In this document: piece after piece, positions 1,508-46,679 of the stretch
Layout of the letters: each line of letters opens with the position of its first letter
How positions within the stretch are numbered: the stretch's first letter is position 1
From: Stentor roeselii
Taxonomy: Eukaryota > Ciliophora > Heterotrichea > Heterotrichida > Stentoridae
DNA length: 64,000 bases
Direction: 5' to 3'
Assembly: GCA_006503475.1 (NCBI GenBank)
Contig: RSEH01000148.1
Span: 56,037-120,036, forward strand
Program-made: the position numbers and the translations under genes
Notes under the pieces: model-generated
Database searches by the model: none
What the model was told of the DNA's origin: nothing
The model's input: the letters and a program-made list of their open reading frames with translations, nothing else

Positions 1508-1518
1508 TATAAATCATG
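1508..1518 (+). promoter_or_regulatory. TATAAATCATG start-site element (CorA gene)
   Basis: TATAAATC abuts the ATG of the CorA gene. The same string occurs at the Rab-like gene (6488-6498), and shortened TATAAATG occurs at five other starts. Whether it acts as a core promoter with an extremely short leader or as a translation context is inference. Confidence 0.45.
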
Positions 1519-2721
1519 TTAACCAGCCAAACTGAAGACGCGTGCCGATTCAACCGTTTTTCTCTTGTCACAATCGACCGATGCAATTCGATAACTCCAA
1601 GACGAGCGAATCACGTAATTTCCAAACAGGTGACCGAAATCAAACTTTTCGACCTGAACTTCAAATTTTGCAAAAACCTTTCATTTGAAGAGACTTTAGA
1701 CTTCATCTCTCAAGACCACAGCGAGTCAGATCCTTACGTGTTGATGTTTCTTGGACTTGACGATTCCAGTATAATAAACATTCGAAAACAATACGACTTG
1801 CACCCTATCTTGGATTCTGAATGTTCGAACTCGTGGCTTAACGACAAAGACTCTTTGCTTCAGTTCAATGATTATTTCTTGATCACCATTAACGATGCTG
1901 ACAACTCTGATAGTCTCGAAACTCCTGTTTCGCTTAAAATGATTGTATTCAAAAGTCATATTCTTATCTTTGCTGAAGATGAACTGTTCTGTATCAATAA
2001 AGTTTTTAATAAACTACTCAAGTTCTCACAGTTTCCTTCGAGAAGAGGAAGTAAAAGGGGACAGGACCAGGATAATAAGAAAAATATCACACAGCCTACT
2101 ATTGATATTTGGAATGATAAGGGATGTAGCAAGATTGAATCGATTTTTCATAAAATTCTTGAAGCGATTTATAGAAGACTTGAAAAAATTAGTATTAAGG
2201 AATGTCATAATGCATCGAAATGTATGGAGGACTCAAGTAACTTTGGAATTGAAGGAAGGGTGGATTTTATTATTAATCTCACTTTATCCCAGAAGAACCT
2301 TATCTACCTAGAAGAAGTTGTCAGACCAAAGATGAAACTATTCAGAGACCTGATAAACTGTAATTTTTTTTCAGAGCATTTTCAGTTCTATTTGATAAGC
2401 CTTGAAAGCCGAACAATGGTCCTTGTTCATCAAATCTACAACAACAAGATAATCGTAAAAACAGCAGGTAAGATCTTCACCAAAAGCATAGATAACACCT
2501 TGGCAGACAGCTCAGCAAAATTAAATGATATAACAAAATACTTCTCTTCAATCTCAACGATTTTTCTCCCGATTAACTTAATAGCGGGTCTTTGGGGAAT
2601 GAATGTTCAAGTTCCTTGGTTTGATGTGACGAATGAAGGGCCTTTCAGTGGAATAGTAGTGACAACATTAGCAGTATTTATAACAATCACAGTTTACTGT
2701 AAATCAAAAAGTTGGATGTAA
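1516..2721 (+). CDS. CorA/Mrs2/Alr1-family magnesium channel
   Basis: 401 aa. CorA-family proteins are pentameric Mg2+ channels with a large cytosolic N-terminal funnel and two C-terminal membrane helices. The signature Gly-Met-Asn lies at residues 361-363 (GLWGMN), at the end of the first helix (about 340-360). A second helix spans about 375-395, followed by a short basic tail (CKSKSWM). The acidic N-terminal domain and the long helical middle fit the family, and the length is usual. The frame is open without introns and starts in a TATAAATCATG context. It converges on the RRP15-like gene with 17 bp between stop codons. Plasma membrane versus organelle cannot be told from the sequence; no clear mitochondrial presequence is seen. 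Confidence 0.9.
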   Translation: MLTSQTEDACRFNRFSLVTIDRCNSITPRRANHVISKQVTEIKLFDLNFKFCKNLSFEETLDFISQDHSESDPYVLMFLGLDDSSIINIRKQYDLHPILDSECSNSWLNDKDSLLQFNDYFLITINDADNSDSLETPVSLKMIVFKSHILIFAEDELFCINKVFNKLLKFSQFPSRRGSKRGQDQDNKKNITQPTIDIWNDKGCSKIESIFHKILEAIYRRLEKISIKECHNASKCMEDSSNFGIEGRVDFIINLTLSQKNLIYLEEVVRPKMKLFRDLINCNFFSEHFQFYLISLESRTMVLVHQIYNNKIIVKTAGKIFTKSIDNTLADSSAKLNDITKYFSSISTIFLPINLIAGLWGMNVQVPWFDVTNEGPFSGIVVTTLAVFITITVYCKSKSWM

Positions 2722-2738
2722 ACTAACTATTAATCTAA

Positions 2739-3212: not shown

Positions 3213-3341
3213 GATTATTTAGAATGAGGAAGTTTTGATGAATAAAGATTTGGATCGATTAATAAATAAGGTTTTTATTCATGATGCAAAAATTCGATGT
3301 TTTAAGACTTTCTTCATATATCTTATTACACTAACCAACCA

Positions 3342-4034
3342 TCAGGTTCTATTAACCACTTTCAAATTCTTATACCACAGATTTCCTTTATTCTTCTCAA
3401 CTTTCGGAATATTTTTCTCAAAGTCTTCAATATCACCTGCAAGAGCAATACACTTAATCTTGCTAGAAACTCTTTCCAAATTCGGTAAACTTCTCTTCCA
3501 AAACTTCACTCCAGTTGAATTCGGACTTTTACAGTCAATTTCTTCTTGTTCATAATTTTTTAAAAGTTTATTCCCAGGGTCGACATCTCTAACAGGTGAC
3601 TCTTGACAACTATTCATAAACTTTTTAATACTTTTCTGAACCTGTAAATTTTTAACAGGGTTTATCTCTTCCCTGACGATTTTTTGTATAGGTTGCAAAA
3701 ACGTGATTTCTTTTCCAGGTTTTTTAAACAATTTATCCTGATTCCCATAAAAAAACTTGAAAAAATTCGAGTTATACCGAACAGAATTTTTCAGTCCTTG
3801 TTGAACAGCTTCTCTATCAGAGAACCTGATACTATCCAGGTCCTGGTCTTTTCTATCATAATTCATAGGAGGTAGTGAACTGCAAAGCTTTCGAGGAGGA
3901 GGGTCTTCGAATCTTCTTACTTGAATCTGTTTTTTTCTTGAAATCATCAGTTTTTCAGTAGCGATCAATGAGTGCTTTACTTGGAAGTGCTCAGGGGAGT
4001 CTGAAGAGACTGCATTGTGATGGAACTTTTGCAT
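3342..4034 (-). CDS. Uncharacterised basic protein
   Basis: 230 aa from the first ATG (MQKFHHNAV...). A longer reading would need a non-ATG start. I do not recognise a domain. It is hydrophilic, rich in Lys, Ser, Pro and Asn, probably largely disordered, with no signal peptide or membrane segment. It ends in TGA, one of the genes showing that TGA is a stop here. Its start codon lies only 13 bp from the start codon of the divergent gene at 4048, so any shared promoter must be extremely short or lie inside coding sequence. Likely a real gene because of its length and its position between tightly packed neighbours; function unknown. Confidence 0.7.
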   Translation of the reverse strand: MQKFHHNAVSSDSPEHFQVKHSLIATEKLMISRKKQIQVRRFEDPPPRKLCSSLPPMNYDRKDQDLDSIRFSDREAVQQGLKNSVRYNSNFFKFFYGNQDKLFKKPGKEITFLQPIQKIVREEINPVKNLQVQKSIKKFMNSCQESPVRDVDPGNKLLKNYEQEEIDCKSPNSTGVKFWKRSLPNLERVSSKIKCIALAGDIEDFEKNIPKVEKNKGNLWYKNLKVVNRT

Positions 4035-4047
4035 TATTAGTTTCAAG

Positions 4048-4812
4048 ATGGATCTTGTAAAACAGTTTCTTGCTGGGTCTGATCCTTCTGAAATCTTGAT
4101 GATGTGGCCGGAACCTGATTGTTCCCAGGGTGTTATCAGGGCGAAAATGAAAAGTTTGATGGAAGACTTTTCACAAAGTAAAAATTTGGTGGTTGAAGTG
4201 GTTGCTAGTCCTTTTTTTTCACTTAGTCTTTGTCCTGGTTTGGTTAAAGTCGCTTTGGAGGGAAACTCTTTGGTATTATTTAGTTAGGAAGTCATTGAAG
4301 CGCTTTTTAAATTTAAGGGGAAACAAGTTTTAGGAAAAGATTTGGGAAAAGTTTTTAATTACTTGACGGTGTGCTCGATTCCTTCTGGTTTTAATACGGT
4401 TAACACGAAGTCGTTGAAACTTGAAAGTGATCGACAAGGTTTAAAGCTAAAGAGAGCAGATAGAGTGAGATACTATTTGTTGAGTTTAGTTATAAACAAC
4501 AGTATCAGTATTCCAAAGGTTTCTGCTTTGAACAACTTGACAATTCCTTACTTTTCATTTATGATCCGGTACTATATGACATACACTGAGCTTCTTCCTT
4601 ACTCTCCGTCACCCGATCGACTTTTAGACTTTCTTAACGGTCTGATGAACTCCGCATCTCCAACATCTCAGCTTTTCGAGTTAATGGAACTAGTTTCACT
4701 TTACACAAGTTTCTCAGAATCCTCTCATTTTGTGCTTGATCTTCTCTCTGCGCATCCAGAGACCCTTCCTTCAAAGCCGCTTGAACTCTGTTCAAAAATA
4801 ATCCTTTCCTAG
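4048..4812 (+). CDS. Uncharacterised protein, two exons split by a 15-nt intron
   Basis: 249 aa after removal of the intron at 4273-4287. Exon 1 (4048-4272) gives 75 codons and exon 2 (4288-4812) gives 174 codons plus a stop. Without splicing the frame ends at the TAG that forms the intron 3' end. The product looks globular and helical (for example VRYYLLSLVINNSISI, PYFSFMIRYYMTY) with no signal peptide and no motif I recognise. It stands head to head with the gene at 3342-4034, with 13 bp between the two ATGs. The next gene downstream is separated by a run of TTTTCAATC repeats. Gene structure is well supported; function unknown. Confidence 0.8.
4273..4287 (+). other. 15-nt intron
   Basis: GTATTATTTAGTTAG, phase 0, with a candidate branch-point A at position 10. 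Retention would stop translation at its final TAG. Removal joins two otherwise separate open frames into one protein. Confidence 0.9.
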
Positions 4813-4860
4813 TAAACCCTTTCATCCTCACCTTAATCTACATCTTTCCAGTCATTTCAT

Positions 4861-4979
4861 TCCTTTCAATCTTTTCAATCCTTTTCAATCTTTTCAATCT
4901 TTTCAATCTTTTCAATCTTTTCAATCTTTTCATTCCTTTTCAATCTTTTCAATCCTTTTCAATCTTTTCAATCTTTTAA
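4861..4979. repeat. TTTTCAATC minisatellite (9-10 nt units)
   Basis: About a dozen units of TTTTCAATC or CTTTTCAATC, with one variant unit (TTTTCATTC). The array fills most of the spacer between the stop at 4812 and the ATG at 5035, so it is in the 5' region of the coiled-coil gene. Its role is unknown; it may simply be slippage-prone sequence. Confidence 0.9.
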
Positions 4980-5034
4980 TCATTAAAATCACAATCTTTT
5001 CCCTAAACCTAAAAAAAATTCAAGAATAATTCAA

Positions 5035-6471: not shown

Positions 6472-6487
6472 AGAATAATGAAATCCT

Positions 6488-6498
6488 TATAAATCATG
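6488..6498 (+). promoter_or_regulatory. TATAAATCATG start-site element (Rab-like gene)
   Basis: Identical to the 11-mer at the CorA start, and sitting in a spacer of only 24 bp after the previous stop codon. Any transcription start for this gene must be in or next to it, or inside the upstream gene. Confidence 0.45.
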
Positions 6499-7101
6499 GT
6501 AGATGATGTGAAAAACGTAAAGGTTGTCTTTTTAGGGGAACCTGGGTGTGGAAAAACTAGTATTATCAACAGGTATATCAATGGTACTTTTAACCCTGAT
6601 CAGGAGAGTACTATTGGAGCTAATTATTTTAGTAAAACTGTAGAAGTCAACTCGGTTTGGATTAAACTTAACTTGTGGGATATTGCGGGAAAGGATAGAT
6701 ATGAAGGACTTGCCACTCTCTACGCTAAAAATGCTGAAGCTTACGTATTGGTCTGTCAATGCACACAAGAATCAGCAGCTGACTCAATAGAAAGATTTTA
6801 TAACAAGTACATCAAAGAGAATATAAAAAAAGACACACAACTTTTTGTTGTGGTGAATAAAATCGACTTAAACACTTCTGAGAATTCTCTAAATCTAATC
6901 CTTGCCAAAGCAGATGAACTTCATATCTCAGTTTTTCAAGTTTCGTCAAAAGATGGGATCGGAATCGAGGACATGTTTCAAAAATTGCAAGAAAAGATTA
7001 GGAGAAATTCAGCAGCTATATCAAGAAGAAGTATTAATCTAACAACATCGTCTAAACATTCAGTTAATTTGCATGACAAAAAGAAATGTTGCTCAGGATA
7101 A
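6496..7101 (+). CDS. Rab-like small GTPase with Gln-to-Lys change in switch II
   Basis: 201 aa. Rab GTPases recruit effectors to membranes when GTP-bound. Seen: P-loop GEPGCGKTS (residues 14-22), switch I ESTIGANYF with the conserved Thr39, switch II WDIAGKDRYEGL (61-72), guanine motif NKID (121-124), a VSSKDG motif corresponding to SAK, and a C-terminal CCSG suited to geranylgeranylation. Two switch II positions differ from the canonical WDTAGQE: Thr is Ile63 and the catalytic Gln is Lys66. In Rabs the Gln positions the attacking water, so intrinsic hydrolysis should be weak and the protein may stay GTP-loaded or use a different GAP mechanism. Subfamily uncertain. Confidence 0.92.
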   Translation: MVDDVKNVKVVFLGEPGCGKTSIINRYINGTFNPDQESTIGANYFSKTVEVNSVWIKLNLWDIAGKDRYEGLATLYAKNAEAYVLVCQCTQESAADSIERFYNKYIKENIKKDTQLFVVVNKIDLNTSENSLNLILAKADELHISVFQVSSKDGIGIEDMFQKLQEKIRRNSAAISRRSINLTTSSKHSVNLHDKKKCCSG

Positions 7102-7452
7102 TGTAAAATAATATTTATGTTAGAATTAAAAGTTAAACTTATGATTTTGAAGAGGTATGTTTAATGAGGTGAATATTTATTTTTGTAAGATTTGTTTTTA
7201 TTTTGTTGATATTCAATTATACTGCTGGATAATGTTGGAGATGCTTTATTGTTTGATTAATTTATTGAGAAATAAATACTAGTGATTATTTTAGTGATGA
7301 TATTACAATAAGATTATATTAAAATTATCAAATTACCATATTAGTGGATTTATTGGGTTAACTTCATTAACTTGTATTTAATAAATCTAAAGTTCATCAT
7401 TTTATGGTTTTAAAGCCAATTAAAATTCAAAATCAATCGTAAGTTGAATCTT
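7102..7452. other. Intergenic, AT-rich
   Basis: Lies between the convergent ends of the Rab-like gene and RICTOR. I see no open frame, tRNA-like arms or repeats in it. Confidence 0.6.
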
Positions 7453-10902: not shown

Positions 10903-10925
10903 ATTTAGTAGATTGAGGATTATTT

Positions 10926-13900: not shown

Positions 13901-14249
13901 CTAGAAAGTCTTTTCTCAGACGAAGACAAGTTACTTTTTCTGAATGACCTGAAAATGTTTCTAAATGAAGCAAATCTGGAAGGGATAACTTTTGGATTGA
14001 ATCACTTTGACCTAGGAAGACTGAGGATGAGGAAGAGTCGAAGGAGGATGAAGGTCGCTGGTCTGATAAGGATTTTATTATTTTATTGTCGCAGAGGCTA
14101 AATAGTGAAAGAGAGGTACTTGATGCTAACAGGATTAATGATGAGGAAATTGTTTTGATGAATTCTATTGATGGTGGGATTGAGTAGGATTTTGGTAAAG
14201 TTGAACTGAATTCTTGAAGGATGTTTGAAATTGTACTGTCTAAATCCAT
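10926..14249 (-). CDS. WD40 propeller fused to TRP-like six-helix cation channel
   Basis: 1107 aa. The N-terminal half is WD40 repeats; visible blades include GHSEKVTCL...SGSDDKSIRLW (about 95-125), the HEDKVRAVDLSQDLRYVAS blade and SSDLQAVSFVWDIETG (about 480-495). A helical, ankyrin-like linker with NHEALLKDIS and SHSPLSISIARNFPQCI follows. From W797 there are about six hydrophobic helices with TRP/polycystin character: LRKFLYFETFFQMVYLTL, FVINSLLFLYEVSQIL, VNFFVMLSFCVMTW, a Phe- and Arg-containing S4-like segment, a pore loop near YLTSAYLYDLGDS, and a final helix FLNNIVMLNLIISIMSDTY. WD40-channel fusions are a ciliate type of channel as far as I recall. Ion selectivity and ligand are unknown. 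Confidence 0.85.
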   Translation of the reverse strand: MDLDSTISNILQEFSSTLPKSYSIPPSIEFIKTISSSLILLASSTSLSLFSLCDNKIIKSLSDQRPSSSFDSSSSSVFLGQSDSIQKLSLPDLLHLETFSGHSEKVTCLRLRKDFLVSGSDDKSIRLWSLSDLIEVNHRILYEHEDKVRAVDLSQDLRYVASLGYEGLIILFDLQTNSEIKKLDCCYSSYIVQFSFDGKFLVSNENESIYVWNLADYSRCDRQIHDRGINNIWVSQAFAVSIANDKKIIKTSLESLRTTVLAKCEERIVTHYVDSESTIFAVLDNNSLLVIKSEKVEEEAEVFTDSFKVSCFSRLGENLAVFGEFDGETRLRIIESLEIKIEVVLPFFVRSCYGLTDAVIFLDKENHMFFLEVNGKFLRKEEFLPTEVSTCGLSFAVYQEGLISVFNYPDLSIIRSYPRKDTFCALTLLQSRIGFSEYNGDIKLIDLVDNSRKVQVFSGHFTKVSVIFQDPNQRYLFSSDLQAVSFVWDIETGSKIRKLLNFSVHFFHFLKEKETVFLSSHSDQTMIFSLENFEVKTRLRTKYSVKKLLLNEDESIIFLHEIDSLYFLPNPFNKTSLSAVGGHSTLNDFMTYVLSIGEKFEYQSNWSSWLILPQELNVLHFYAYFNNHEALLKDISTDGPMVLSRESHSPLSISIARNFPQCIRSIYKGLATRSKQNPFILKNLENCLTELNNSPSQNVHKFYNLFIQDFDYNLPKFCSSGIDLPIVQTFPSVFSKVSINFKDGDLRQAVKYSQSFVGISLEVGSNSSIEFLLSLLNCENSEVFNCRIIQILLNEKWLILRKFLYFETFFQMVYLTLLSLYATYEKSGLLVGAFVINSLLFLYEVSQILSRSKTYFKSLKNLLEQVNFFVMLSFCVMTWAGESSRELFGFVMFFSWFRGISIFRLFSNTRYYINLLSNVLSDIYPFFMIFAYSTVGFGLVFQALDGSGDYFDYLTSAYLYDLGDSNSEGFSKLHWLAYFLVTFLNNIVMLNLIISIMSDTYARVRENSSQADSIELTNMLIDVEIMMVWKRGQNIKKYFFLCETAASVENNEDFRYKIKKVKSFIKEINEKLTGNHKEYQKSLNEISSNSNFAHLSLMELNRSLSKK

Positions 14250-14617
14250 TTATTTGAGGGTTGGTTATTTGGGTGGTATTTAAATTAAGATAAGAGGTTT
14301 TTATGGGCTTTTGGTTTAAGTTAGTTTATATTTGGGTTATGATACTTTCTCTAAATATTCGATCAATTGAATTGTATGGAAGTTTATGATTATAAAGAGG
14401 TTATAATTTTCTTTAAAAGAATTAAGTAGAGTAAATCATTTGTTTTTAATGATATCTGGAAATAGATTTACTCTAAAAACACAAAAATCAGAGAGGTGAA
14501 AAAAGCACTCAATTCAATTAACTCTTCTTTAAATACAATTATTTATTCAGATTATAAAGATGAACCTTGAAATTTATTCCAGATTATTTTAGGGAATAAT
14601 AGTAAAGCACCCCCATA
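14250..14617. other. Intergenic, AT-rich
   Basis: Shared 5' region of the divergent WD40-channel gene (minus) and the small orphan ORF at 14618 (plus). No RNA gene, repeat or further ORF seen. Confidence 0.5.
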
Positions 14618-16668: not shown

Positions 16669-16676
16669 TATAAATG
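16669..16676 (+). promoter_or_regulatory. TATAAATG start-site element (eS10 gene)
   Basis: TATAA joined directly to the ATG of a highly expressed ribosomal-protein gene, within a 23-bp spacer. One of five exact copies of this 8-mer at start codons in the window. Confidence 0.45.
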
Positions 16677-17039
16677 GTGCTAATTTCAAAGGAAGAAAGA
16701 CAGCAGATTTACCAGTACCTGCTGAAAGAAGGCACTCTAGTCGTCAAGAAAGACGTAGGACTGCCGAAACATCAGGACATTAATGTTTCCAATTTGAAAG
16801 TAATGATGCTGTGTAAGACTTTGAAGTCCAAAGGGCTTTTGGTTGAAAGATTCAATTGGCAATACTATTATTTCAATCTTAATGAAGATGGCATTAGAGC
16901 CATGTGTGAAAACTTAGGACTGCCAACTAATATCAGGCCTGACTATTACAAAGCACCTGCTGTCAAGAGACCTGTCACTGAGGGAAATGAAGGAAGGAGA
17001 GGCTTTGGAAGGGGAAGAGGAAGACCTAAGGATGAGTAA
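16674..17039 (+). CDS. RPS10: Small-subunit ribosomal protein eS10
   Basis: 121 aa. eS10 sits on the head of the 40S subunit near the mRNA entry. The S10/plectin winged-helix domain covers residues 1-95 with the family landmarks YQYLLKEGTLVVKKDVGLPKH, NLKVMMLCKTLKSKGLLVE, FNWQYYYFNLNEDGI and LGLPTNIRPDYYK. A Gly/Arg-rich tail (RRGFGRGRGRPKDE) follows, as in other eukaryotes. Slightly shorter than animal eS10. No intron is visible. The start lies in a TATAAATG context. Confidence 0.96.
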   Translation: MVLISKEERQQIYQYLLKEGTLVVKKDVGLPKHQDINVSNLKVMMLCKTLKSKGLLVERFNWQYYYFNLNEDGIRAMCENLGLPTNIRPDYYKAPAVKRPVTEGNEGRRGFGRGRGRPKDE

Positions 17040-18475: not shown

Positions 18476-18483
18476 TATAAATG
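18476..18483 (+). promoter_or_regulatory. TATAAATG start-site element (Nup188-like gene)
   Basis: TATAA directly joined to the ATG of the 1,874-codon gene. Confidence 0.45.
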
Positions 18484-24105: not shown

Positions 24106-25352
24106 AGCTTATCTTGCAAGTACCCAAATAAAATCACTGAAACTTTCGGGTCTGTCTTACTTTTAAACTTGTCAAGTTCGTCATGTCGAAGTTCAACTCC
24201 TACTTGTTGACTATTACTTACTTTAGGAAGATCTCTCGACATACTCGAGGTTTCAACGAAAAAATAAGTATTGACCCAAAATGAAAATTTCATCTTTTCA
24301 CTTACAAAGGACACGTTAATGTCCTCAGCGCCGATCACGTCTTCTTCAAACACATATTGTTCAAAGTCTTTTTGAAATCGCACTGGAATGACTGTTCCTT
24401 GCCAGAGGACCTCATCTCCAAGTTTCGAGATGCAGATTTTTGCAGGTTCTTCTTTTGTTTCTTCTCGAATCGGCCCGATGTTGAGTTGGACCAGAGCCAC
24501 TTTTCGGTCGAGTTTATTTTTTAGCTTTTGAAGGCCGTGAGTGCTTTTCAGGATCCCTGGAAGCTTTTTGATGAAAACGTCGCCTAGGTTTTCTTTGAGG
24601 AAACGGTAAAAGTAACTGATGTATCTTATTTGGCTTTTTATTGTCACTCCTTTGCCGTTGTAGGTCCTGCGGATTCCGTATTCTCGCATTGCGTCTATGT
24701 CGTTGAAGCCTTGGGTGAAGACGAGGTATGCGCAGATCATTAAACCGGTTCTTCCTTTACCTGCCTTGCAGTGAACGGCTATCACGTTGTCTTCGTGCTG
24801 GGCTAGGTAGAGATAAGCGTCTACGCAAAACTCGAGCATCATTATTAGGTCTGTTGGGTTGTGGTCTTTCATTGGGAAGTAACTCACTGAACCGTTGAAT
24901 AGTGAGGAGTGATAGTATCGGTTTCTTTCTACACACAAGTTGTAAATTCGATAATGAGTGGGATGATATGAGTTCATAAAGGATATTGTATCTTCTCGTG
25001 AGTTCCGATAGCAGGACTCCAGGCCTTTTGAAGGAAATCCCATTGCGATTACTCTTTTCGTAATGTAGGCCAAGTCTAAATCAAACTGATCATTAATAAA
25101 CCTTTTTTTTTTACGTGAAACTAAAGACTTCATTGTATTCCTCGAAAACTTTACAGTAGAACTATCAAAATAGTGATTCATTCTATGATAAACAGCTTCT
25201 TCCGAAAAATCATCAATTTTTATATCAGAGTTCATATATGGAAGCAACTTTTTAAGGTTCTCAAATCGATCCGCTTCTAATCGTGATGACCTGAGCTGCA
25301 ATTCACGGTCTCTCTCTTTAGCAGCCTTTTTTTGATCATTTGAGTTTCCCAT
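24102..25352 (-). CDS. PTEN: PTEN, PIP3 3-phosphatase
   Basis: 416 aa (human PTEN is 403). PTEN removes the 3-phosphate from PIP3, opposing PI3K. The phosphatase domain spans about 70-255 and carries the exact PTEN active-site loop HCKAGKGRTG at 194-203 (Cys195, Lys196, Lys199, Arg201); both lysines distinguish PTEN from protein phosphatases. A C2-like domain follows (about 260-395, FEQYVFEEDVIGAEDINVSF). The N-terminal extension of about 65 residues begins MGNSNDQKKAAKERDREL, a possible N-myristoylation site followed by basic residues, which would place it on membranes. It is divergent from the AGC kinase (150 bp) and shares its stop site with the Nup188-like gene. Confidence 0.95.
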   Translation of the reverse strand: MGNSNDQKKAAKERDRELQLRSSRLEADRFENLKKLLPYMNSDIKIDDFSEEAVYHRMNHYFDSSTVKFSRNTMKSLVSRKKKRFINDQFDLDLAYITKRVIAMGFPSKGLESCYRNSREDTISFMNSYHPTHYRIYNLCVERNRYYHSSLFNGSVSYFPMKDHNPTDLIMMLEFCVDAYLYLAQHEDNVIAVHCKAGKGRTGLMICAYLVFTQGFNDIDAMREYGIRRTYNGKGVTIKSQIRYISYFYRFLKENLGDVFIKKLPGILKSTHGLQKLKNKLDRKVALVQLNIGPIREETKEEPAKICISKLGDEVLWQGTVIPVRFQKDFEQYVFEEDVIGAEDINVSFVSEKMKFSFWVNTYFFVETSSMSRDLPKVSNSQQVGVELRHDELDKFKSKTDPKVSVILFGYLQDKL

Positions 25353-25502
25353 TATAGTCGTGTTTTCACCCCTAAATAAAAAATAACAGTATTCCAGAGT
25401 TAATATTCGATGATATTCGACCTAATTCATTAAAATAAAATAAGATCTTAACACCCTAAATGCATAGTCATCTAAACTTTCCTTGGATTACCTTAAACAA
25501 AA

Positions 25503-26965: not shown

Positions 26966-27631
26966 TTATTTATTTCTCACTAAATTCCTGATTTTCGCTA
27001 TCACCTTCTCAGGAGAGTTCGAAGAATGAAGACAAAAACTTTTATTTTTCGACCTTTTCGCTGAAGGCTTCGGAGGACTAAGTAAAAATGAGACTTCTTT
27101 CACTGGAGATGAAAATTTACTAGATTCACTTGTAAGTCTGAAATGTGATGAAAAGACAGGAGGAGGGGAAAAATCTTTCTTTTCCTGAAATTTTAACCTG
27201 CTGCTTCTGCCAATTTTTAACATTTCGCTTTTTCTGGCTGAGCTTTCAATTTCAGATCGAGAAAGACTGTCAGAAGACTTTTTTTTAAGTCTCGTTTTCC
27301 TGTTTTCAGTGATTTGGTCAAGTCTTCCGAAAAGCTCAAAACTTTCTTCTTTTGAAAGTTTTCTTTCAATTTTTAAATTTTCAGCTTCTTTTTCTTTTTT
27401 CTCCAGCGAAAATCGAGATTTCATGCTTTTTGGAGGAGACTTTGAAGTGGAACCTCGACCAGTCGCTGAAGGTTTTGGGGTTGTTTTGATCGGGTGAATA
27501 GAAAAGCCGGTTTCGAAAGAGTGACCTTGGGAGCCTGAAACACTTGATGAGTGAATCGTTGAAGGAATCGAGTGACTTGGCGTGAGAAGGTCTTCTTCAT
27601 GACTGTTTTTATTTTCAGGCAATTTTAGCAT
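26966..27631 (-). CDS. Uncharacterised Ser/Lys-rich protein
   Basis: 221 aa, low complexity, strongly Ser-, Lys- and Pro-rich, with many SP/TP and basic-Ser sites (STSKSPPKSMKSRFSLEKK, KKSSDSLSRSEIESSARKS) and a short charged helix around 85-120. No domain, signal peptide or membrane span. Probably disordered and phosphorylated. It is convergent with the AGC kinase (14 bp between stops); any substrate relation is only speculation. The start is in TATAAATG context, which supports the chosen ATG. Confidence 0.65.
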   Translation of the reverse strand: MLKLPENKNSHEEDLLTPSHSIPSTIHSSSVSGSQGHSFETGFSIHPIKTTPKPSATGRGSTSKSPPKSMKSRFSLEKKEKEAENLKIERKLSKEESFELFGRLDQITENRKTRLKKKSSDSLSRSEIESSARKSEMLKIGRSSRLKFQEKKDFSPPPVFSSHFRLTSESSKFSSPVKEVSFLLSPPKPSAKRSKNKSFCLHSSNSPEKVIAKIRNLVRNK

Positions 27632-27636
27632 TTATA
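27629..27636 (-). promoter_or_regulatory. TATAAATG start-site element
   Basis: Exact minus-strand copy at the ATG of the Ser/Lys-rich protein gene. Confidence 0.45.
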
Positions 27637-30828: not shown

Positions 30829-30849
30829 CCGAAACAATTTCAGCCATAA

Positions 30850-31845
30850 ATGGCTTTCCAAGAGCTCGCATTAAAAGACTACAACTTCAACTCATACTGG
30901 CAAAGAGTAGAAAACCTGAAATGTAGCGACTTCTTCCTATCATCAACCGAGCCCCTCTTCCAAACTTCCCTAATCCGAATCGGTGACTTCGGTTGTTCAG
31001 AAGGTGCGAATTCAATAAGTTTCTTCAACAAAGTACTATCATCCTTGAAATCCAAACAAGAACTTCCATCAATCTTAATCACTCACTGCGACCTTCCCGA
31101 AAACAACTGGACTTCCTTGAACCAAACATTAATATCAAGCAAAGACTCTTATCTCTCTCACAGTTCAGCCTTTTCCTCAACAATCGGCCGTTCTTTTTTC
31201 AGTCAGCTCTTCCCGAAGGACTACCTGGACATAAGTTACTCAGCTTTCAGCTTTCATTACTTGTCAAAGCCTGGAGAAAGGCCACCTGGCGATTCAGGTC
31301 TTTACCATTCCGGTGTGCAAAAACAAGGAATTATTGACATGAGTCATTTAATTCTTACTAGAATTGAAGAGCTTAGGCCTGGTGGAGTCTTTTTTGGAAT
31401 AGTTGGAGCTCAGGGAATTGAAAAGCCGGTTGTCACAGAAGCTACTTTAAATGAGGTTTTTGGAAAAATGATTGAACGGGCACTGATTAGTCCTGAGGAA
31501 ATTGGGTCGATTGAATGGAATACTTGCTTGTTGGATGAAAGTGAATGGAGAGTTATTTTGGAACAAGTTAAGAATAAAGCTGAAGTCGTTCATTTCAATA
31601 TTCAGAAAAGTGTTTGTCCTTATTATACGGAATATTTGGAGGATCAGGACTTGGAGAAATATGTGAATGGACTTTCTGGGTTTTACTTTGTGTTACTTCA
31701 GCATGTCATTAGGAAGTGCTTGAAAAGTGAGAATAAGGATGAGATTATGAAGGAATTTCATTTGGAAATTAAAAATGCTATCAGGAATCATGTCGCTGAG
31801 ACCTTTATGGACATCGCGATTGTCGTGATTAAGAAGAATAGCTAA
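30850..31845 (+). CDS. SABATH-family SAM-dependent carboxyl methyltransferase
   Basis: 331 aa. SABATH enzymes methylate small-molecule carboxylates (salicylate, jasmonate, farnesoate type) or ring nitrogens using SAM. Family landmarks: SAM-binding IGDFGCSEGANS (43-54), HCDLPENNW, GRSFFSQLFPKDYLDISYS then AFSFHYLS, and ELRPGGVFFGIVGAQG. The size is typical. These enzymes are best known in plants and are also found in some protists and bacteria. Substrate cannot be inferred. The start context is CATAAATGG. Confidence 0.85.
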   Translation: MAFQELALKDYNFNSYWQRVENLKCSDFFLSSTEPLFQTSLIRIGDFGCSEGANSISFFNKVLSSLKSKQELPSILITHCDLPENNWTSLNQTLISSKDSYLSHSSAFSSTIGRSFFSQLFPKDYLDISYSAFSFHYLSKPGERPPGDSGLYHSGVQKQGIIDMSHLILTRIEELRPGGVFFGIVGAQGIEKPVVTEATLNEVFGKMIERALISPEEIGSIEWNTCLLDESEWRVILEQVKNKAEVVHFNIQKSVCPYYTEYLEDQDLEKYVNGLSGFYFVLLQHVIRKCLKSENKDEIMKEFHLEIKNAIRNHVAETFMDIAIVVIKKNS

Positions 31846-31960: not shown

Positions 31961-32911
31961 CTACCAGTTTTCAAAAGGATCTTCAACTAAAGGCCCTTCA
32001 TCACTAGTATCAGATTCAGGGTACTTAAAAAAATTAGAAGTATCTCCCTGAAACTTAACATTAGGAAGATACGGCATAGGGACCATCTGAAACTCAAGTA
32101 ATTCCCACTCAACATCCCTAAAAAACATATGTCTTTTAATATCCTGGACCCCTCTCTTCATATTTCCATACCGTTTACTCAAGTCACTAACCAGCAGATG
32201 CTTGACAAGACTCTTAGCATTAGAGTCAAAACCTTTCGGAAACTTGACTTTTCCATTCAAAACATTTGAATAAACCACCATCGGGTCAGGGTCATGAAAA
32301 GGGTCGATTCCTGTGATCATTTCATAGATGATGACTCCGAAGCTCCACCAGTCAACTGCCGTTCCATAAGGAAGATTTCTGATGATTTCAGGAGCCATGT
32401 ATTCAGCTGTTCCACAAAAGGTCTGAGTTCGATGAGAAATGACTTTTGCTAGTCCAAAGTCTGTAAGTTTAAGGTAACCATTTGGACGGATTAAAAGGTT
32501 CTCAGGCTTCAGGTCACGGTAAACTATTGACTTGCTGTGAAGGTGGGAAAGGGTCAGAACTATCTGAGATGATAATAGAGAGGAATGGGCTAGTGATAGA
32601 CCTTTGTTCAGCTTTATGTATGTGAATAAATCACCTCCTGAGATAAACTCAAGAGCGAAATAAAGGAATATTTCATCTTGAGAGTAACCCAGAAGACGTA
32701 CTATGAATGGGTGGTTCAGGGATTTCATTATTTCTAACTCTGAGTGAACGTGGTCGACTTGTTTTGAGTTTATTAGGTGACTTTTTTTCATTGCTTTTAA
32801 TGCGAAAAATACGGATGTTGAACGACTTCTGGCGATTTTCACCCGTCCATACCCTCCTCTTCCAATAGTATGAAAGACTTCAACATCCTCAATCCTGAAT
32901 CTTAGAGTCAT
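31961..32911 (-). CDS. PKA-like AGC protein kinase catalytic subunit
   Basis: 316 aa, almost only a kinase domain plus a short AGC tail, as in PKA catalytic subunits. Gly loop GRGGYGRV (17-24), Lys39, YRDLKPEN with Asp133, TDFGLAK with Asp151, activation loop Thr164 in TFCGTAEYMAPE, then VDWWSFGVIIYEM. The tail has the FKYPESD segment and ends DPFENW, so an aromatic F-x-x-W sits at the very C terminus, where PKA has FTEF to fill its own PIF pocket. PKA, PKG or an orphan AGC are all possible; no cyclic-nucleotide domain is present. Its ATG is 12 bp from that of the divergent gene at 32924. Confidence 0.9.
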   Translation of the reverse strand: MTLRFRIEDVEVFHTIGRGGYGRVKIARSRSTSVFFALKAMKKSHLINSKQVDHVHSELEIMKSLNHPFIVRLLGYSQDEIFLYFALEFISGGDLFTYIKLNKGLSLAHSSLLSSQIVLTLSHLHSKSIVYRDLKPENLLIRPNGYLKLTDFGLAKVISHRTQTFCGTAEYMAPEIIRNLPYGTAVDWWSFGVIIYEMITGIDPFHDPDPMVVYSNVLNGKVKFPKGFDSNAKSLVKHLLVSDLSKRYGNMKRGVQDIKRHMFFRDVEWELLEFQMVPMPYLPNVKFQGDTSNFFKYPESDTSDEGPLVEDPFENW

Positions 32912-32923
32912 TATTCTTTTATT

Positions 32924-33640
32924 ATGAATAAAAATCTCAAAGCAAAAAACGTAACATCAAGTAAAAACTCTCGGAAGCCTTCAGTAAAAGTCATAACAAA
33001 GACATTCGACCGAGATTCCTCAAAAGCCTTAAGAAAAGGGACTCCTCCATCAGGCCAAGTCCTTCGAACATCAGCGAAAGACTCTCCAGTAAACATCGAA
33101 AGTATCGACCTTTCCTCCGAGCAGGACTTCGACGCTCTTCAAATCGCGCAGGCGACTTCTTCATTAAAACTCCAGCTGCTTCAATCTTTGCAGGTCTTCA
33201 AAACGGCGAATAATGATTACATGAGTCAAAACTGGGAACTTCGCAGTGAAGTCGACACTTTTCAAAAGGACTTCATGACTGTCAAGGTCGAAGTCGAAGG
33301 CTTGCTCTGGGAAAGTGCGAAGTCGAAAGAAGGACTCAGCAGAATGAAGGGGATTATTGAAACTCCGAAGACTCGCACCCAAGGACCTGAAATTTTAGAT
33401 ATTGATTTGAGCTCTGTAAAGGAAAATGATGAGGAAACACTTTTGAATGCTTTGAAAAAATTGCAGATTCAGGTTGAAGGGATTAGGGAAAAAATTGAAA
33501 GTAATGAAAGTCAGCTTAAGACTAAGGAATCGGAAAATAGCGAACTTAGATCTGCTGTTTTTAAGTTAAGGGATAGCATTTTAGCTACACCGGATTTGGT
33601 TGGGGATACTGCTAAGAATAGCTGTTGTGGCGTTTTTTAA
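32924..33640 (+). CDS. Coiled-coil protein with possible C-terminal lipidation
   Basis: 238 aa. A basic Ser-rich start (SSKNSRKPSVKVITK), then predicted coiled coil around 80-125 and 165-225. It ends SCCGVF; the last four residues CGVF have the C-a-a-X shape with Phe last, which would favour geranylgeranylation, and the paired cysteines could also be palmitoylated. No enzyme motif. It shares a 12-bp spacer with the PKA-like kinase. Function unknown. Confidence 0.75.
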   Translation: MNKNLKAKNVTSSKNSRKPSVKVITKTFDRDSSKALRKGTPPSGQVLRTSAKDSPVNIESIDLSSEQDFDALQIAQATSSLKLQLLQSLQVFKTANNDYMSQNWELRSEVDTFQKDFMTVKVEVEGLLWESAKSKEGLSRMKGIIETPKTRTQGPEILDIDLSSVKENDEETLLNALKKLQIQVEGIREKIESNESQLKTKESENSELRSAVFKLRDSILATPDLVGDTAKNSCCGVF

Positions 33641-37800: not shown

Positions 37801-38206
37801 AGTTGCAAAAGGTTACGATTTGATCTTGGATTATAATAACACATATTGATTTCGATAATTTATCATGATAAATCTGCATGCTCATAGTTGAACTATATAC
37901 TGAATAAAGTAATGAATTTGTATTCCCGTCTAATGATTTAACCCAAAATACAAGTTTAAAGTCATTTGGATGCACAAAATCGCTAACTACATCAGAATTC
38001 GCAACAGAAACCATAGATTCTTCAGAAAGATATACACCTCTATCAGTGAATATAGAATCTTTTACGTCATCATCAATTGAGAGACCATTCACACCATGAT
38101 TTTGATTTTCTGAGTAATCTTTGATTATTTTTCCATGGTTTTTGTAGAACCTATACTCAATAAACGCAGCGTAGCTCAAGAACATCAGAATTAGCTTCCA
38201 AGACAT
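34814..38206 (-). CDS. LamG-like and furin-like Cys-repeat multi-pass membrane protein, three exons
   Basis: 1120 aa after removal of two 15-nt introns (exons of 913, 20 and 187 codons). A hydrophobic signal sequence (WKLILMFLSYAAF) leads into a LamG/concanavalin-like domain, about residues 75-245. Cys-rich furin/EGF-like repeats follow at about 250-660, with a period near 48 residues and the pattern C-x2-C-x3-C-x2-C-x5-C-x2-C plus a later C-x-C-x2-G. After a beta-rich stretch there are about eight membrane helices (770-1095), including NPSPAWLLLGSIQLFSYIPV, and a charged cytosolic tail (KVKIIEEKDVVDEIK). This architecture is typical of large ciliate surface-protein families. Probably a cell-surface or ciliary membrane protein; ligand unknown. 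Confidence 0.85.
35378..35392 (-). other. 15-nt intron
   Basis: GTAATTTTTAATTAG, phase 0, A at position 10. It joins the 20-codon exon to the last exon. Confidence 0.9.
35453..35467 (-). other. 15-nt intron
   Basis: GTAAGTTTTAGCTAG, phase 0, A at position 10. Its TAG would end the protein before the last membrane helices if retained. Confidence 0.9.
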
Positions 38207-38211
38207 TTATA
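38204..38211 (-). promoter_or_regulatory. TATAAATG start-site element
   Basis: Exact copy at the ATG of the LamG/furin-repeat membrane protein gene. Confidence 0.45.
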
Positions 38212-42600: not shown

Positions 42601-45600
42601 TTCTATTCCAACTTCACAGATCTTGGAAGGGATGCAAGATGTGACACTTATGAGGCCAATATCAATTTTCTGAGAAGTATGAATACTAACATTTTTGTTA
42701 CTGTAGTCAACGGTTCCAAAGTAAGTTTCGACTTTCAGGTTGATTTGAATGATGATGTTTTCAAAAATATTTATAAGTTCGATTTCAATTAAACAATTAC
42801 TTTTGATTTGAAACAGAAAAATCGGGGTCAAAGTCCAGGTGCACAATAGAGGATTTGAGTAGCCTCCTGTTGATTGAGTACCACTTACGTTCAATTTTTC
42901 ATTTATTCCTTGTTTATAGTAAAAAATATCATCAGTGTCAATTTTTGCTACAGGAGTAGGTCTTTTTGATTCTTCAATTAGTTGGAAATTTAGGCTTGGA
43001 ATCATGAAATACTCGCATTCTTTGTCTTCAGATTTAAGATTGTTAGTAAAAAAAGTCAGGTTTTGATAAAATATAAAGTTTCTGGTTCCGAGAATTAAAT
43101 GAAATTCGTTTTTTTCTTTTCCTCTCGTTTCTGAAAAATCAACTCCAAGGATTATGAATTTGTTTATTATGTGATCAGATATTCGAAAGCTTTTAGAAAA
43201 GGTCAAAGTTGAATTGATTCTAATAATGATCTTTGAAAAATCATCTATGATTAATATTTCAAAATCTTCTTTTTTCAACCATCGTTCACATGGCACACAC
43301 TGTGCCCGGTGCAAAAAATAGTTTTCGCTGCACCTGCAAATATTATCAATAATTTCATATTTACAGACACAAAAAGTATCAGGATAGGTATCTCCTATTA
43401 AGCATTCTTCACAACTTATAGAGCTTTTACACTTTTTGCATCCTTGATAGCAATCTCTGCATTTTACTCCATCAAAATAAGTGGATTCAGGACATAAGCA
43501 ATTATCTTGAATAGAAACAAAAGAATCTTTACATTCAGTGCATGATGCTTTATTTTCACAACTAAGGCATTGTATCATACACATCGAACAAAAAGAATCT
43601 CCTTTTAAATCAATTCTGTAAAATCCAGGTAAACAGCCACAGCCAGGGTTATCTGAAGGAATTAAAGAATCATCCTTGCACACCAAACAGGTCCTTCCAT
43701 TATCACAAGATAAACAATCTGGATGGCAAGTTTTGCATTCTTCTATAAGGAAATCTTTATTCGCACAATTAATACAGTCTCTGTAATACCCTTGAGCACA
43801 TGCACTACAAAAATTTTCATTTAAACATACTCCACATCTGATATCACATGTCTCGCACTTCCATTCATTTAGGAAATATCCATCATTGCATTTCTGACAA
43901 TTTACCGGATTTCTGCAACTTAGACAATTTGAAGGACATTCTGAGCATTGACCAGAATTTGAAAAAAATGAGGGAAGGCAGCTATGACAATAAGTTTGAC
44001 TCAGGCAAGATGGACAGTCAGGTAAGCATTTTACGCATTTACCTGAATCAAGGTAAAATGTAGGAGAACAATAGAGACAATAACTTGAGTTGTAACACGA
44101 TTCACAATTATCAGGACAACTAAAACACTCTCCAGATTCTTCATAAAATGTCTTTAAACATTCGCTACAGAAAGAAAAGTTGATACAGATTAAGCAGTTT
44201 AAAGGGCAATCCAAGCATAGACCGTTATTTAAGTATTGAGAAACTCTGCATTCAAGACAAGTTCCTAGATTTGAACATTCTAAACATTGAGATGAACAAG
44301 AAATGCATTCTCCAGAGTCAAGGAAAAAGCCATTCCAGCATGCACTGCAATATGTATTATTTTCATAAATTTCACATTCAGGAATCTGTCGAAAGCACCA
44401 GCCTTCTACTAAATTAAAACCTTCTTCACATGCTATGCATCGGCTTAGGTCGTAGCAGAATAAACAGTTTGGAGAGCAGTTGATGCAGTTCCCATCTTCA
44501 AAAAAGTAACTTATTTTGCATGAAAGGCAGTAATCAATTTTTGAGCAGGCCCAGCAACTCTCAGGACAAGCTGTACATTGGCCATCAGAGACAAAATACC
44601 CACTATCACAAAAGATGCAAAGGGTAGAAGAATGGCAGGAGAGGCAGTTTGAAGAGCATTTAAGACACTCAGATGCCGAAATATAAAATCTTTCCTTGCA
44701 TCGAATGCAAAACGTTTGACTCTGGCAAATCTCACAGTTCGAATTACACTCAAGACAAATCCCGTTTTCTAAATAAAAAGAATCTTCACATTCTTTGCAA
44801 ATTCCTGAATCTCTGCAGATCTTGCAGTCAGACAAGCACTTCAGGCATCTTCCACCTTCCAAGTAATAATTTTCGTAGCATTCGAAGCATTTTTTGTCAC
44901 TTTCACAGAATTTGCAGCCCGTTGGGCAATTAAAACATTTTCCAAGGGCTAAAAATGAACTTTCGTTGCAAGCAACACAGGTTAGCTGATCGATGCACTT
45001 TTTACAGTTAGAAGTGCATTTCATGCATAAACCATTACTAAGTAAATAGCTGGGTTTGCAACTACTGCATAAATCTGGAGATTTGCAGGTTATGCAGTTA
45101 GGAAGGCACTTTAAACACTTTCCTAGATTTAAATAGTGCTGATCTTCACATTCAACGCAGAAATATTGATTTTGGCAGATTTTGCAGTTTTTTGAGCATT
45201 TTGTACACTTACCTGAATCTTCGAAATAGTTAACATTGCATAAATAACAAGTGTTTGCATTTTTACAAAATGCACAATTTTCAGAACATTTTAAACAGTT
45301 TCCACTATCGATGTAATATTCAGTATTACAGAAATCGCAAGATGCTTGACTTGAACAGCTCCAGCAATTATCAGGACATCTAAAGCACTGTCCAGAATTT
45401 AGGAAATAGTATGGGCTACAATCTGTACAAGTTAGTAGATTATTACACATAATACAATTCGCAGCACATTCAAAACATTTACCACCAAGTTGATAAAATA
45501 AGTTAGAGCAAGTAGTGCAGGTATCTAATCCAGCACAAATTAGGCAGTTCGATTCGCACTTAAAACATTTTCCTAAATCCAAATAAAGTCCATTCTCGCA

Positions 45601-46674
45601 TTCCAAACATCCTCCAGAACTGTCACACTTACTACATCCTGAAGCACAAGACAAGCAGGAGCCAGATGAAGCATAAAATGGGTTTGCACAGGTGCTGCAT
45701 GAACTTTTGATTTGACACTTCTTACAACTGTCATCATCTTGGCAACTGATGCAAAGTCCAGAGTCTAAATAAAAAAAATTTCCGTAACAAGAGGAGCAAA
45801 AATTTTCACTTGAACAACTCGCACATCCGGCTGAGCACTTAAAACATCTTCCAGCATTCAAAAAATACTCTCCAGTTTCACATTCAGTGCATATATCGAA
45901 GTTAGAGCACTTCAAACACCCTTTAGAGCATGACAAGCATCGTCCTGAGTCTAAAAAGTAATAATTTTGATAACAAGTTTTGCAAAAAACACCATCTAAA
46001 CAGTCTAAACAAGGCCAAACACAGTCATAACACAGCCCATTACTCAGGAAAAAACCCTGATCACAGACATTGCATTCAGTATCTGAGCAGCTCAAACAGG
46101 ACTTAAAGCAAAGTTTACATGACAAAGAACAACTAGCATATCCTACTAGAGACCTCCAGGGTTTTACACTATCAGAGATTAGAATCGATGACAACTCTTT
46201 AAAGATTAGAACCCTTATTTTGACCTGAGAGAATTTCGAATTACTCGAGATTACTTTTATCAAAAAATTTAACATGAAAAGGTTATCTTGACTAATCACT
46301 CCTATTATTGAAGATGACTCAGAGTCAAAACATTCGTGATAAGAAATTTCTTGATGGCTTCCAGGGTTTATTATAACTAAACCATCTAAACCATCTTCAT
46401 TTATAAGACCGAGGCTGGAATAGTTTTCACAGACTTCTGAATTGTTGGAGAATTTAAATTGGAATGAATCAAAATAAGACTCACTTAAAAACATGATTTC
46501 TTTTAGCTTTGACTCACTCAAGTCTAAACAGCTATCAAAGCAGGATATTTCAAAGTCAGCAATTTTTTGTGTAAGGCGTAATTGAAATTTTGAAGTCTTT
46601 AGGCTAGATCTTAGTTTAGCATCAACTTTCAAAGGTATTGCGAGCAGCGCAGCGACTATAAGCAAGAAAAACAT
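39667..46674 (-). CDS. Giant Cys-repeat / REJ / GPS membrane protein, polycystin-1-like
   Basis: 2335 aa. A signal peptide (FFLLIVAALLAIPLKVDA) is followed by a short N-terminal domain, then about 26 regular 30-residue repeats (about 180-970) of the form C-x2-C-x3-C-x2-C-x5-C-x2-C ending in a Gly, with a few irregular repeats to about 1130. A beta-rich REJ/PKD-like region (about 1370-1700, with IDASESFDPNN) follows. A GPS motif CTCNHLTTF with the expected cleavage point between Leu2040 and Thr2041 precedes a membrane helix near 2060-2090 and four more near the C terminus. Order REJ-GPS-helices resembles polycystin-1 and sperm REJ receptors, but I see no PLAT domain and only about five helices. 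Likely an autoproteolysed surface receptor. Confidence 0.85.
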   Translation of the reverse strand: MFFLLIVAALLAIPLKVDAKLRSSLKTSKFQLRLTQKIADFEISCFDSCLDLSESKLKEIMFLSESYFDSFQFKFSNNSEVCENYSSLGLINEDGLDGLVIINPGSHQEISYHECFDSESSSIIGVISQDNLFMLNFLIKVISSNSKFSQVKIRVLIFKELSSILISDSVKPWRSLVGYASCSLSCKLCFKSCLSCSDTECNVCDQGFFLSNGLCYDCVWPCLDCLDGVFCKTCYQNYYFLDSGRCLSCSKGCLKCSNFDICTECETGEYFLNAGRCFKCSAGCASCSSENFCSSCYGNFFYLDSGLCISCQDDDSCKKCQIKSSCSTCANPFYASSGSCLSCASGCSKCDSSGGCLECENGLYLDLGKCFKCESNCLICAGLDTCTTCSNLFYQLGGKCFECAANCIMCNNLLTCTDCSPYYFLNSGQCFRCPDNCWSCSSQASCDFCNTEYYIDSGNCLKCSENCAFCKNANTCYLCNVNYFEDSGKCTKCSKNCKICQNQYFCVECEDQHYLNLGKCLKCLPNCITCKSPDLCSSCKPSYLLSNGLCMKCTSNCKKCIDQLTCVACNESSFLALGKCFNCPTGCKFCESDKKCFECYENYYLEGGRCLKCLSDCKICRDSGICKECEDSFYLENGICLECNSNCEICQSQTFCIRCKERFYISASECLKCSSNCLSCHSSTLCIFCDSGYFVSDGQCTACPESCWACSKIDYCLSCKISYFFEDGNCINCSPNCLFCYDLSRCIACEEGFNLVEGWCFRQIPECEIYENNTYCSACWNGFFLDSGECISCSSQCLECSNLGTCLECRVSQYLNNGLCLDCPLNCLICINFSFCSECLKTFYEESGECFSCPDNCESCYNSSYCLYCSPTFYLDSGKCVKCLPDCPSCLSQTYCHSCLPSFFSNSGQCSECPSNCLSCRNPVNCQKCNDGYFLNEWKCETCDIRCGVCLNENFCSACAQGYYRDCINCANKDFLIEECKTCHPDCLSCDNGRTCLVCKDDSLIPSDNPGCGCLPGFYRIDLKGDSFCSMCMIQCLSCENKASCTECKDSFVSIQDNCLCPESTYFDGVKCRDCYQGCKKCKSSISCEECLIGDTYPDTFCVCKYEIIDNICRCSENYFLHRAQCVPCERWLKKEDFEILIIDDFSKIIIRINSTLTFSKSFRISDHIINKFIILGVDFSETRGKEKNEFHLILGTRNFIFYQNLTFFTNNLKSEDKECEYFMIPSLNFQLIEESKRPTPVAKIDTDDIFYYKQGINEKLNVSGTQSTGGYSNPLLCTWTLTPIFLFQIKSNCLIEIELINIFENIIIQINLKVETYFGTVDYSNKNVSIHTSQKIDIGLISVTSCIPSKICEVGIESIQLYSKSKNFQCEWRETGNDNKSIGNSSLCSSLVIEPFTYSPGIYNFSLVIKSYGVEISQSIVEVVMIVEKPVIIVDKMNGTVTSLQDLEIDASESFDPNNINNKYDLLFEWTCQLDSQPCKFELKNNSSILYISSYNLHSKNTYEITLKVISRIYNSSEIFKLSGNLIEENVPVVKIIEKTTKSYIKKIPLMEITILECLFQNSVPIQSLSWSINHLSQEIISDSNIMLSPSSLGLPPGSYTLTVEVLTEKNTKVQYLSEFEVNSPPKPGTFSYSPFIIQELVTEVSLKAENWEDPDLPLEYMFISQSPFSSYILISSKFSSFYSTFSWTGQNQTIICRVFDSLGDFSELSKAIHVQKSSFSQIWNFFEKNRKVEPISRIPQIISNIIASTLEREFFESGTFQGKSDELEKFQEIFDWSLGYIDEFLQLSGFSDLMASQVINLMEHLTANPALKTNFSDDEGLTSENYQKTSDVLKELIEKAQDLGLSKEMTGRILEILANIIRIDQNLLSYNQGIIGEFSQINDDAVKLAMKRMNANESTFFENEIFNSRIFVGNSIQFEGYYEKTDNLSVSLPDQIFNSDDDIFKYGISTSHYLSDPLGNSSSDLVSLSIFNLTSNEKITVQLKDYLIEIEIPIKFHENDFKTKDCLFLNETLKNWSIKGCIKKKVLKNSVICTCNHLTTFYFGVFELETSATYSFQEHASGGLNEKTLTSAGFLIVISLSGMFLITLLYITIKGTNNARIKPVTYSRVYPIKQSGDTGEISYANLGEENKNDPGRNFPRPHLRSKMKRFFRWYCQSIFVYKIYRTKKDIFIQITKHYFIFILQIFLDILIYDYQYRKKSPEDFENILKNNLTSFNIVVILITEAIITVFELLINLIERLKDNRSHEYCKVCISVIMLVFYIIASIYCFYIISKTSTAFNSVINKAWIICIIVSFIVNIFLVDVFIIKPLKKLVKFILTKARCISKTDEDRNN

Positions 46675-46679
46675 TTATA
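46672..46679 (-). promoter_or_regulatory. TATAAATG start-site element
   Basis: Exact copy at the ATG of the 2,335-codon gene. Confidence 0.45.

Follow-up and report, generated by a model that had tools for sequence, protein, structure and literature searches.

The start codons of a large share of genes, both in a 64,000-nucleotide (nt) stretch of DNA (the window) and in further parts of the same genome, are directly preceded by the word ATAA, often with a T or A in front. On balance, the word probably serves as the initiator of the core promoter; judging from the sequence, the organism is taken to be a heterotrich ciliate of the Stentor type. On this reading, transcription by RNA polymerase II would begin within or just beside the ATAA element, so that mRNA leaders would measure roughly 0 to 15 nt and the start codon would occupy about the position of the transcription start site (TSS) in other eukaryotes. 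In core histone genes a TATA box is added ~32 bp before the ATG, often together with a CCAAT box at ~66 to 80 bp, and most other genes show no TATA box and have the ATG-proximal element alone. A transcription start at the element and leaders of this length are inferred from features which can be read directly, namely the element itself, its phase and specificity, the positions of the TATA and CCAAT boxes and the tiny gaps between genes.

The window forms part of a 44.4 Mb genome in 522 contigs. A start set was assembled from the window and twenty-five further 10-kb stretches from other contigs, amounting to 314 kb and 169 usable open reading frame (ORF) starts. These starts were called mechanically, as the first ATG of non-overlapping ORFs of at least 120 amino acids (aa) with introns ignored, so the set includes some false starts and lacks genes whose first exon is short (e.g. 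4048-4812 in the window). ATAA directly precedes the ATG at 38/169 starts, with exact TATAA at sixteen and AATAA at seventeen, against 2.3 expected under a first-order Markov model of the upstream DNA and 36/2323 noncoding ATGs preceded by the same word. Within genes, ATAA precedes 27/2054 out-of-frame and 11/2213 antisense ATGs, while the in-frame internal ATGs (0/1152) form an unfair control, as TAA is impossible in frame. When TATA or ATAA lying wholly inside the seven bases before the ATG is counted, an AT-rich element is found directly upstream of 68/169 starts, compared to 150/2365 noncoding ATGs (6 %). A preliminary description of the window had placed the motif at about half of its genes, in excess of what AT-richness alone should give, and both points hold, with 13/24 window starts carrying TATA or ATAA in the last seven bases by an eye count. 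Chance in AT-rich DNA could account for the raw number of TATAAATG copies in the window, which at ten is just about twice the expectation (mean of 5.3 in dinucleotide shuffles, with at least ten in 6/100 shuffles). This number is unremarkable, but the placement at ORF starts is remarkable: five of the ten copies are those named in the preliminary description, each opening an ORF, and the remaining five (16237, 38995, 46398, 50485 and 59047) are situated away from called starts. Since placement at starts is far above that at noncoding ATGs and under the composition model, and also exceeds the TAA-matched control described below, chance was rejected as an explanation and its probability can be considered negligible.

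The TAA of TATAAATG is in frame with the ATG, and TAA occupies position -3 in 46/169 starts, as would be expected if selection favoured an in-frame stop that blocks N-terminal extension from upstream initiation. The other stop codons do not follow suit, with TAG at -3 in 2/169 starts and TGA in 0/169. The cleanest control retains only those ATGs with an in-frame TAA at -3, which thus cannot be internal codons of that frame. Among these, 38/126 ATGs after ATAA are called starts, compared to 8/176 where C, G or T precedes the TAA (p 9e-10; C 2/34, G 1/38 and T 5/104). The same pattern is obtained when ATGs opening an ORF of at least 100 aa are counted: 42/126 after ATAA (TATAA 18/37, AATAA 19/53, CATAA 3/16 and GATAA 2/20) and 10/172 after TAA with another preceding base, compared to 2/110 after TAG and 1/341 after TGA. 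The enriched word is therefore ATAA, preferably with a T or A in front, rather than a stop codon. As TAG and TGA show no enrichment, stop-codon selection was rejected as the general cause, and it is very unlikely to be the explanation.

Genome-wide comparisons of words with their reversed strings, such as TATAAATG (5650 vs 3259), were not counted as evidence. TATAA followed by two bases and ATG is likewise in excess (4288 vs 2470 reversed), and the corresponding values are 2584 vs 2272 for one intervening base, 3207 vs 2494 for three, and 18981 vs 21436 for TATAAATH; coding frames (TAT AAN NAT G, for example) probably contribute to such counts. The longer word TATAAATCATG, which the preliminary description had set apart, is present at both sites cited for it and has 82 genome-wide sites against twelve for its reversed string, the latter being a poor control here. 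Of twenty sites read among the 82, five open an ORF of at least 100 aa and one more an ORF of 96 aa, compared to 14 % of all ATGs (1314/9325). As a separate class TATAAATCATG has weak support genome-wide, and it was dropped as a strong one.

The preliminary description had left the choice between a core promoter element and a translation-initiation context. Under the latter, the ribosome would recognise AUAA before the AUG as this organism's counterpart of a Kozak sequence, and the word would carry no information on the position of the TSS. The sharp phase of TATAA relative to the ATG in the 169 starts, with sixteen copies at -5, three at -4 and one at -6, keeps this alternative alive, as do the A-rich positions -4, -2 and -1 and a mild preference for G at +4. 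The usual context rule is a purine at -3. In 126 starts this position holds T in 44 %, A in 40 %, G in 9 % and C in 7 %, such that only about half carry a purine. Moreover, the position of the element varies from -4 to -7 in the core histone genes, and a ribosomal context does not account for TATA and CCAAT boxes whose distances from the ATG are those usual from a TSS. It is consequently a possible but rather unlikely account of the element. In a leader spanning just a few bases, a translation context and an initiator could act together. The initiator reading is favoured by where the TATA and CCAAT boxes stand, by the variable position of the histone element, by T being about as frequent as A at -3 and by gaps between genes that leave hardly any room for leaders.

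The core histone genes provide starts that are sure, because the N-termini of these proteins are known. Among the thirty-one histone-family matches, twenty-one were read and fourteen were taken as H3, H2A or H2B on the basis of their N-termini. The seven left out comprise L071-L075, which have the look of another histone-fold family, L078, for which no start was obtained, and L103, which is unclear. TATAAA occurs at -25 to -36 from the ATG in 10/14 core histone genes, eight of them in the narrow interval of -31 to -33, and an eleventh carries TATATA at -35. In the general set TATAAA is found in this interval at 2/169 starts (Fisher p 7e-12 for the histone excess). CCAAT or ATTGG is situated at -66 to -80 in 8/14 of the core histone genes, and 13/14 have TATA or ATAA within -7 to -1. 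The TATA box and the ATG-proximal element are 26 to 29 bp apart, with L085 (20 bp) as the exception. The distance from the TATA box to the ATG is nearly as constant as that to the element, and L080, in which a TATA-like box and the element both lie 2 to 3 bp further out, is the sole gene separating the two distances. In the usual eukaryotic layout the TATA box lies ~30 bp and the CCAAT box ~60 to 100 bp upstream of the TSS. Since the histone boxes stand at these same distances from the ATG, they are best explained by a TSS at or very near the ATG.

A single gene for the TATA-binding protein (TBP) was found, encoding both TBP repeats in canonical form and close to solved TBPs (best E 9e-82). 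The places of the DNA-intercalating residues are occupied by Phe, so that the protein would be expected to bind TATA. Beyond the histones a small excess of an upstream word is seen: across the genome, 8/42 matches have TATAAAAG at 31-32 bp from the ATG of a downstream ATAAATG, compared to 2.7 if the distribution were flat (p 0.005), and the excess persists when two histone genes already seen are removed (p 0.04). TATA boxes seem to be a feature of a minority of genes, with the ATG-proximal element as the common part.

Some further words were observed in the histone upstream regions. The H2A genes of L082 (minus strand), L083 and L084 share GTATCCATATCTA at about -55 from the ATG, in two exact copies and one near copy, and L077 carries the word as well, 18 bases before the ATG of its H2B gene; it is possibly a histone-specific regulatory element. 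Three H3 genes (L067, L068 and, on the minus strand, L070) have in common an ATCAC with A-rich DNA behind it (-59 to -65), located between the CCAAT and TATA boxes.

The genes are tightly packed. The twenty-five smallest of seventy-seven tandem gaps measure 2 to 27 bp, and 4/31 divergent pairs have their start codons 6 to 13 bp apart, to which the window adds a pair at 4034/4048 with a gap of 13 bp. A fifth close divergent pair overlaps by 12 bp and probably includes a false ORF. In the pair of L001, with a gap of 9 bp, a Pfam-supported protein is encoded on either side (an ion channel and a protein with MORN repeats). Within the window, divergent start codons 12 bp apart are found at 32909..32926 (ORF 31961-32911 on the minus strand and ORF 32924-33640 on the plus strand), which is too little room for two ordinary leaders. 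The second divergent pair of the window (4032..4050) joins ORF 3342-4034 on the minus strand to a gene-like frame at 4048-4812 on the plus strand, which encodes 249 aa, is interrupted by one 15-nt intron at 4273-4287 (GTATTATTTAGTTAG) and is absent from the mechanical ORF list.

Such packing raises the alternative that the element is the poly(A) signal of the upstream gene (AATAAA or TATAAA) overlapping the next start. NATAAA hexamers resemble poly(A) signals, tandem gaps go down to a few bp, and the share of ATAA-ATG is highest in tandem genes less than 60 bp apart (10/30). A signal of this type would be confined to genes with an upstream neighbour on the same strand, but the element occurs at 15/62 divergent genes, as well as 17/77 tandem genes and 6/30 genes with no called neighbour in the stretch, and also at 5/24 tandem genes more than 250 bp from their neighbour. 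The upstream poly(A) signal was therefore rejected, and there is little chance that it underlies the element. Because it is present at divergent as well as tandem genes, the element can be assigned to the gene it precedes.

The close divergent pairs also bear on the alternative that the element is a promoter element downstream of the TSS, inside a leader of ~10 to 20 nt. An element of this type has been described in Pseudokeronopsis, and similar ones are cited for Strombidium and Nyctotherus in the portion of that report considered here (PMC8899921). A second, weak A/T rise at -15 to -10, and some enrichment of AATAA at -12 and -13, where 6/17 and 6/28 ATGs, respectively, are starts, are in keeping with it. 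Divergent ATGs 6 to 13 bp apart hardly fit leaders of 10-20 nt, unless the transcripts overlap inside coding sequence, and this alternative is considered improbable.

In the closest pair (L018) the start codons are separated by TTATAA (6 bp), a word identical to its reverse complement, so that TATAA precedes both of them. The palindromic 12-mer CATTTATAAATG (CAT-TTATAA-ATG), at 2901-2912 in L018, has thirty-five sites in the genome, compared to twelve for the reversed string. Among the twenty-one sites read, ORFs of at least 100 aa are found on both sides in four (L018, L035, L042 and L044), on one side in eleven and on neither in six. Pfam support exists for one side in two of the four double cases, and for both sides in none. 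Double use of CATTTATAAATG by divergent genes is thus likely, but not proven. A bolder proposal, which is tentative and has a good deal less than an even chance of being correct, is that most mRNAs of this heterotrich are nearly leaderless, with promoter distances set from the start codon, the ATG-fused WATAA (W being A or T) serving as both initiator and translation start and, in back-to-back genes, a single palindromic TTATAA between the two start codons firing in both directions.

Several observations weigh against an initiator at the start codon. The sharp -5 phase of TATAA in the general set is tighter than would be expected of a promoter element with variable leaders. Upstream ATGs are scarce close to the start, with 5 ATGs vs 43 permuted triplets at -12 to -4 and 13 vs 74 at -20 to -6, compared to 96 vs 348 further out, but this depletion, which would trace the extent of the leader, is not significant, although in the right direction (p 0.09 and 0.19). 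No significant peak of TATAAAAGC was found before ATGG genome-wide (8/51 at 31-33 bp vs 4.9 expected; p 0.12). The tubulin-family genes (17/23 matches read) are no richer in the element than average, with ATAA-ATG in 2/17 and TATA or ATAA within -7 in 6/17, about the genome average. Among tandem genes the share with ATAA-ATG is uneven, falling from the value given above for gaps below 60 bp to 2/23 at 60-250 bp before reaching that for wider gaps. In Halteria grandinella the TSS averages 17 bp downstream of a TATA-like motif and the leader 18 nt, according to the portion of the source drawn upon (PMC7858049); because of this TSS distance, the histone spacing is also compatible with a leader of 10 to 15 nt. 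Finally, the AT-rich element of Pseudokeronopsis lies between the TSS and the start codon, as far as the consulted part of its description goes (PMC8899921). Of the two roles proposed in the preliminary description, the promoter is nonetheless favoured on account of the histone TATA/CCAAT spacing and the tiny gaps.

Within the window, all five exact TATAAATG copies named in the preliminary description are situated at ORF starts. That at 16669..16676 (plus strand) opens an S10/plectin-domain (ribosomal protein S10-like) ORF at 16674-17039 and lies 23 bp past the stop of the tandem ORF upstream, and that at 18476..18483 (plus strand) opens ORF 18481-24105 (1874 aa), which is without a Pfam family. 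On the minus strand, the copies at 27629..27636, 38204..38211 and 46672..46679 open, respectively, ORF 26966-27631 (also without a Pfam family), ORF 35453-38206 (917 aa) and ORF 39667-46674 (2335 aa). The TATAAATCATG copies, both on the plus strand, open a CorA-like ORF (site 1508..1518; ORF 1516-2721, 401 aa) and a Ras-family ORF (site 6488..6498; ORF 6496-7101, 201 aa), the latter site being 24 bp past the upstream stop. The near matches were likewise found as described. AATAA precedes the ATG at 103 (AATAAATG at 98..105, plus strand, opening an IBR/RING ORF at 103-1410) and at 14249 (AATAAATG at 14247..14254, minus strand, opening a WD40 ORF at 10926-14249), and CATAA that at 30850 (CATAAATG at 30845..30852, plus strand, opening a methyltransferase-like ORF at 30850-31845). 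TATAAA precedes the ATG at 61369 (TATAAAATG at 61367..61375, minus strand), which opens ORF 46958-61369 (4803 aa), and CTATA that at 25352 (TATAATG at 25350..25356, minus strand), which opens ORF 24102-25352, beginning with MGNS; the names RNF213-like and PTEN for these two ORFs, respectively, are those of the preliminary description only.

The assignment of the organism to a Stentor-like heterotrich follows from its introns and genetic code. The ORFs of the window are long under the standard code, and the 169 ORFs end in TAA (103), TAG (47) and TGA (19). A scan for short segments of the form GTA..(T/C)AG which restore a blocked frame identified twenty-eight candidate introns of 15 nt, with at most five for any other length from 12 to 30 nt and none of 16 nt, and position 10 is an A in 27/28 of the 15-nt candidates. 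In Stentor, introns are 15 or 16 nt long, and most of those of 15 nt have their branch A at position 10, as stated in the section of the source used (PMC9505925). Some features of the window and genome stand apart from the start codons. The G+C content (GC) is 0.22-0.29 per 2 kb at 46000-64000, spanning the ORF of 4803 aa and beyond, and is mostly 0.30-0.40 before 46 kb, apart from lower values of 0.27 (14-16 kb) and 0.24 (38-40 kb). Tandem repeats of the type TTTTCAATC occupy ~120 bases at about 4860-4980, shortly upstream of the ORF at 5035. At either end of contig C1, no telomere repeat was recognised within the terminal 120 bases.

Elements adjoining the start codon are known from other protists, and the comparisons below extend to those parts of the cited papers that were considered. 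Giardia intestinalis has an AT-rich initiator, with transcription of its core histone genes beginning 1 to 27 nt ahead of the ATG (PMC1872034). The resemblance lies in an AT-rich element adjoining the start codon. Unlike the genes described here, with their TATA and CCAAT boxes, the Giardia histone genes use the him element. The Giardia TBP is substituted at three of four key Phe residues, whereas that found here is canonical, and the Giardia start sites were mapped, while those proposed here are read from DNA. In Spironucleus salmonicida, at least three As precede the ATG in 33 % of genes, which its authors consider to be probably part of the initiator, and TATA-like motifs occur at an AT peak between -60 and -20 (PMC3916229). 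The present element differs in its word, ATAA, in the T or A at -3 and in the narrow position of the histone TATA box, and the organisms are unrelated.

Among the ciliates, Pseudokeronopsis is alike in having an AT-rich element near the start codon of most genes which its authors tie to transcription initiation (PMC8899921), but this is a 15-nt motif, WnAWTWn, found on nanochromosomes downstream of the TSS, with no phase to the ATG stated in the part of the account considered. Very short leaders, as proposed here, are known in Halteria and in Paramecium, where the median is 19 nt (PMC5485702), and the TATA-like motif of Halteria is also close to the ATG. This motif differs in occurring on nanochromosomes and in lying ~35 bp from the ATG (17 + 18, summed here), with no ATG-fused element described in the portion of the source drawn upon. 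The 3' untranslated regions (UTRs) of heterotrichs, the same ciliate group by intron type, are very short or absent, with medians of 21 to 23 nt that were the shortest its authors found in the literature (PMC4967479), and short intergenic and untranslated regions are also noted for Blepharisma stoltei (PMC9942806). This is an extreme shortening of UTRs, at the 3' end, whereas the present element concerns the 5' end. No start-codon element or mapped TSS in Stentor or other heterotrichs was recognised among the top open-access literature matches. The kind of element is therefore known, while the combination of an ATG-fused ATAA with histone genes whose TATA and CCAAT boxes are placed relative to the ATG is new as far as the literature was searched. 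If the initiator reading is correct, it would allow genuine start codons to be called by a simple rule in such genomes and raise the question of how mRNAs with few leader bases are translated without scanning, and it would represent the 5' counterpart of the known near-loss of heterotrich 3' UTRs.

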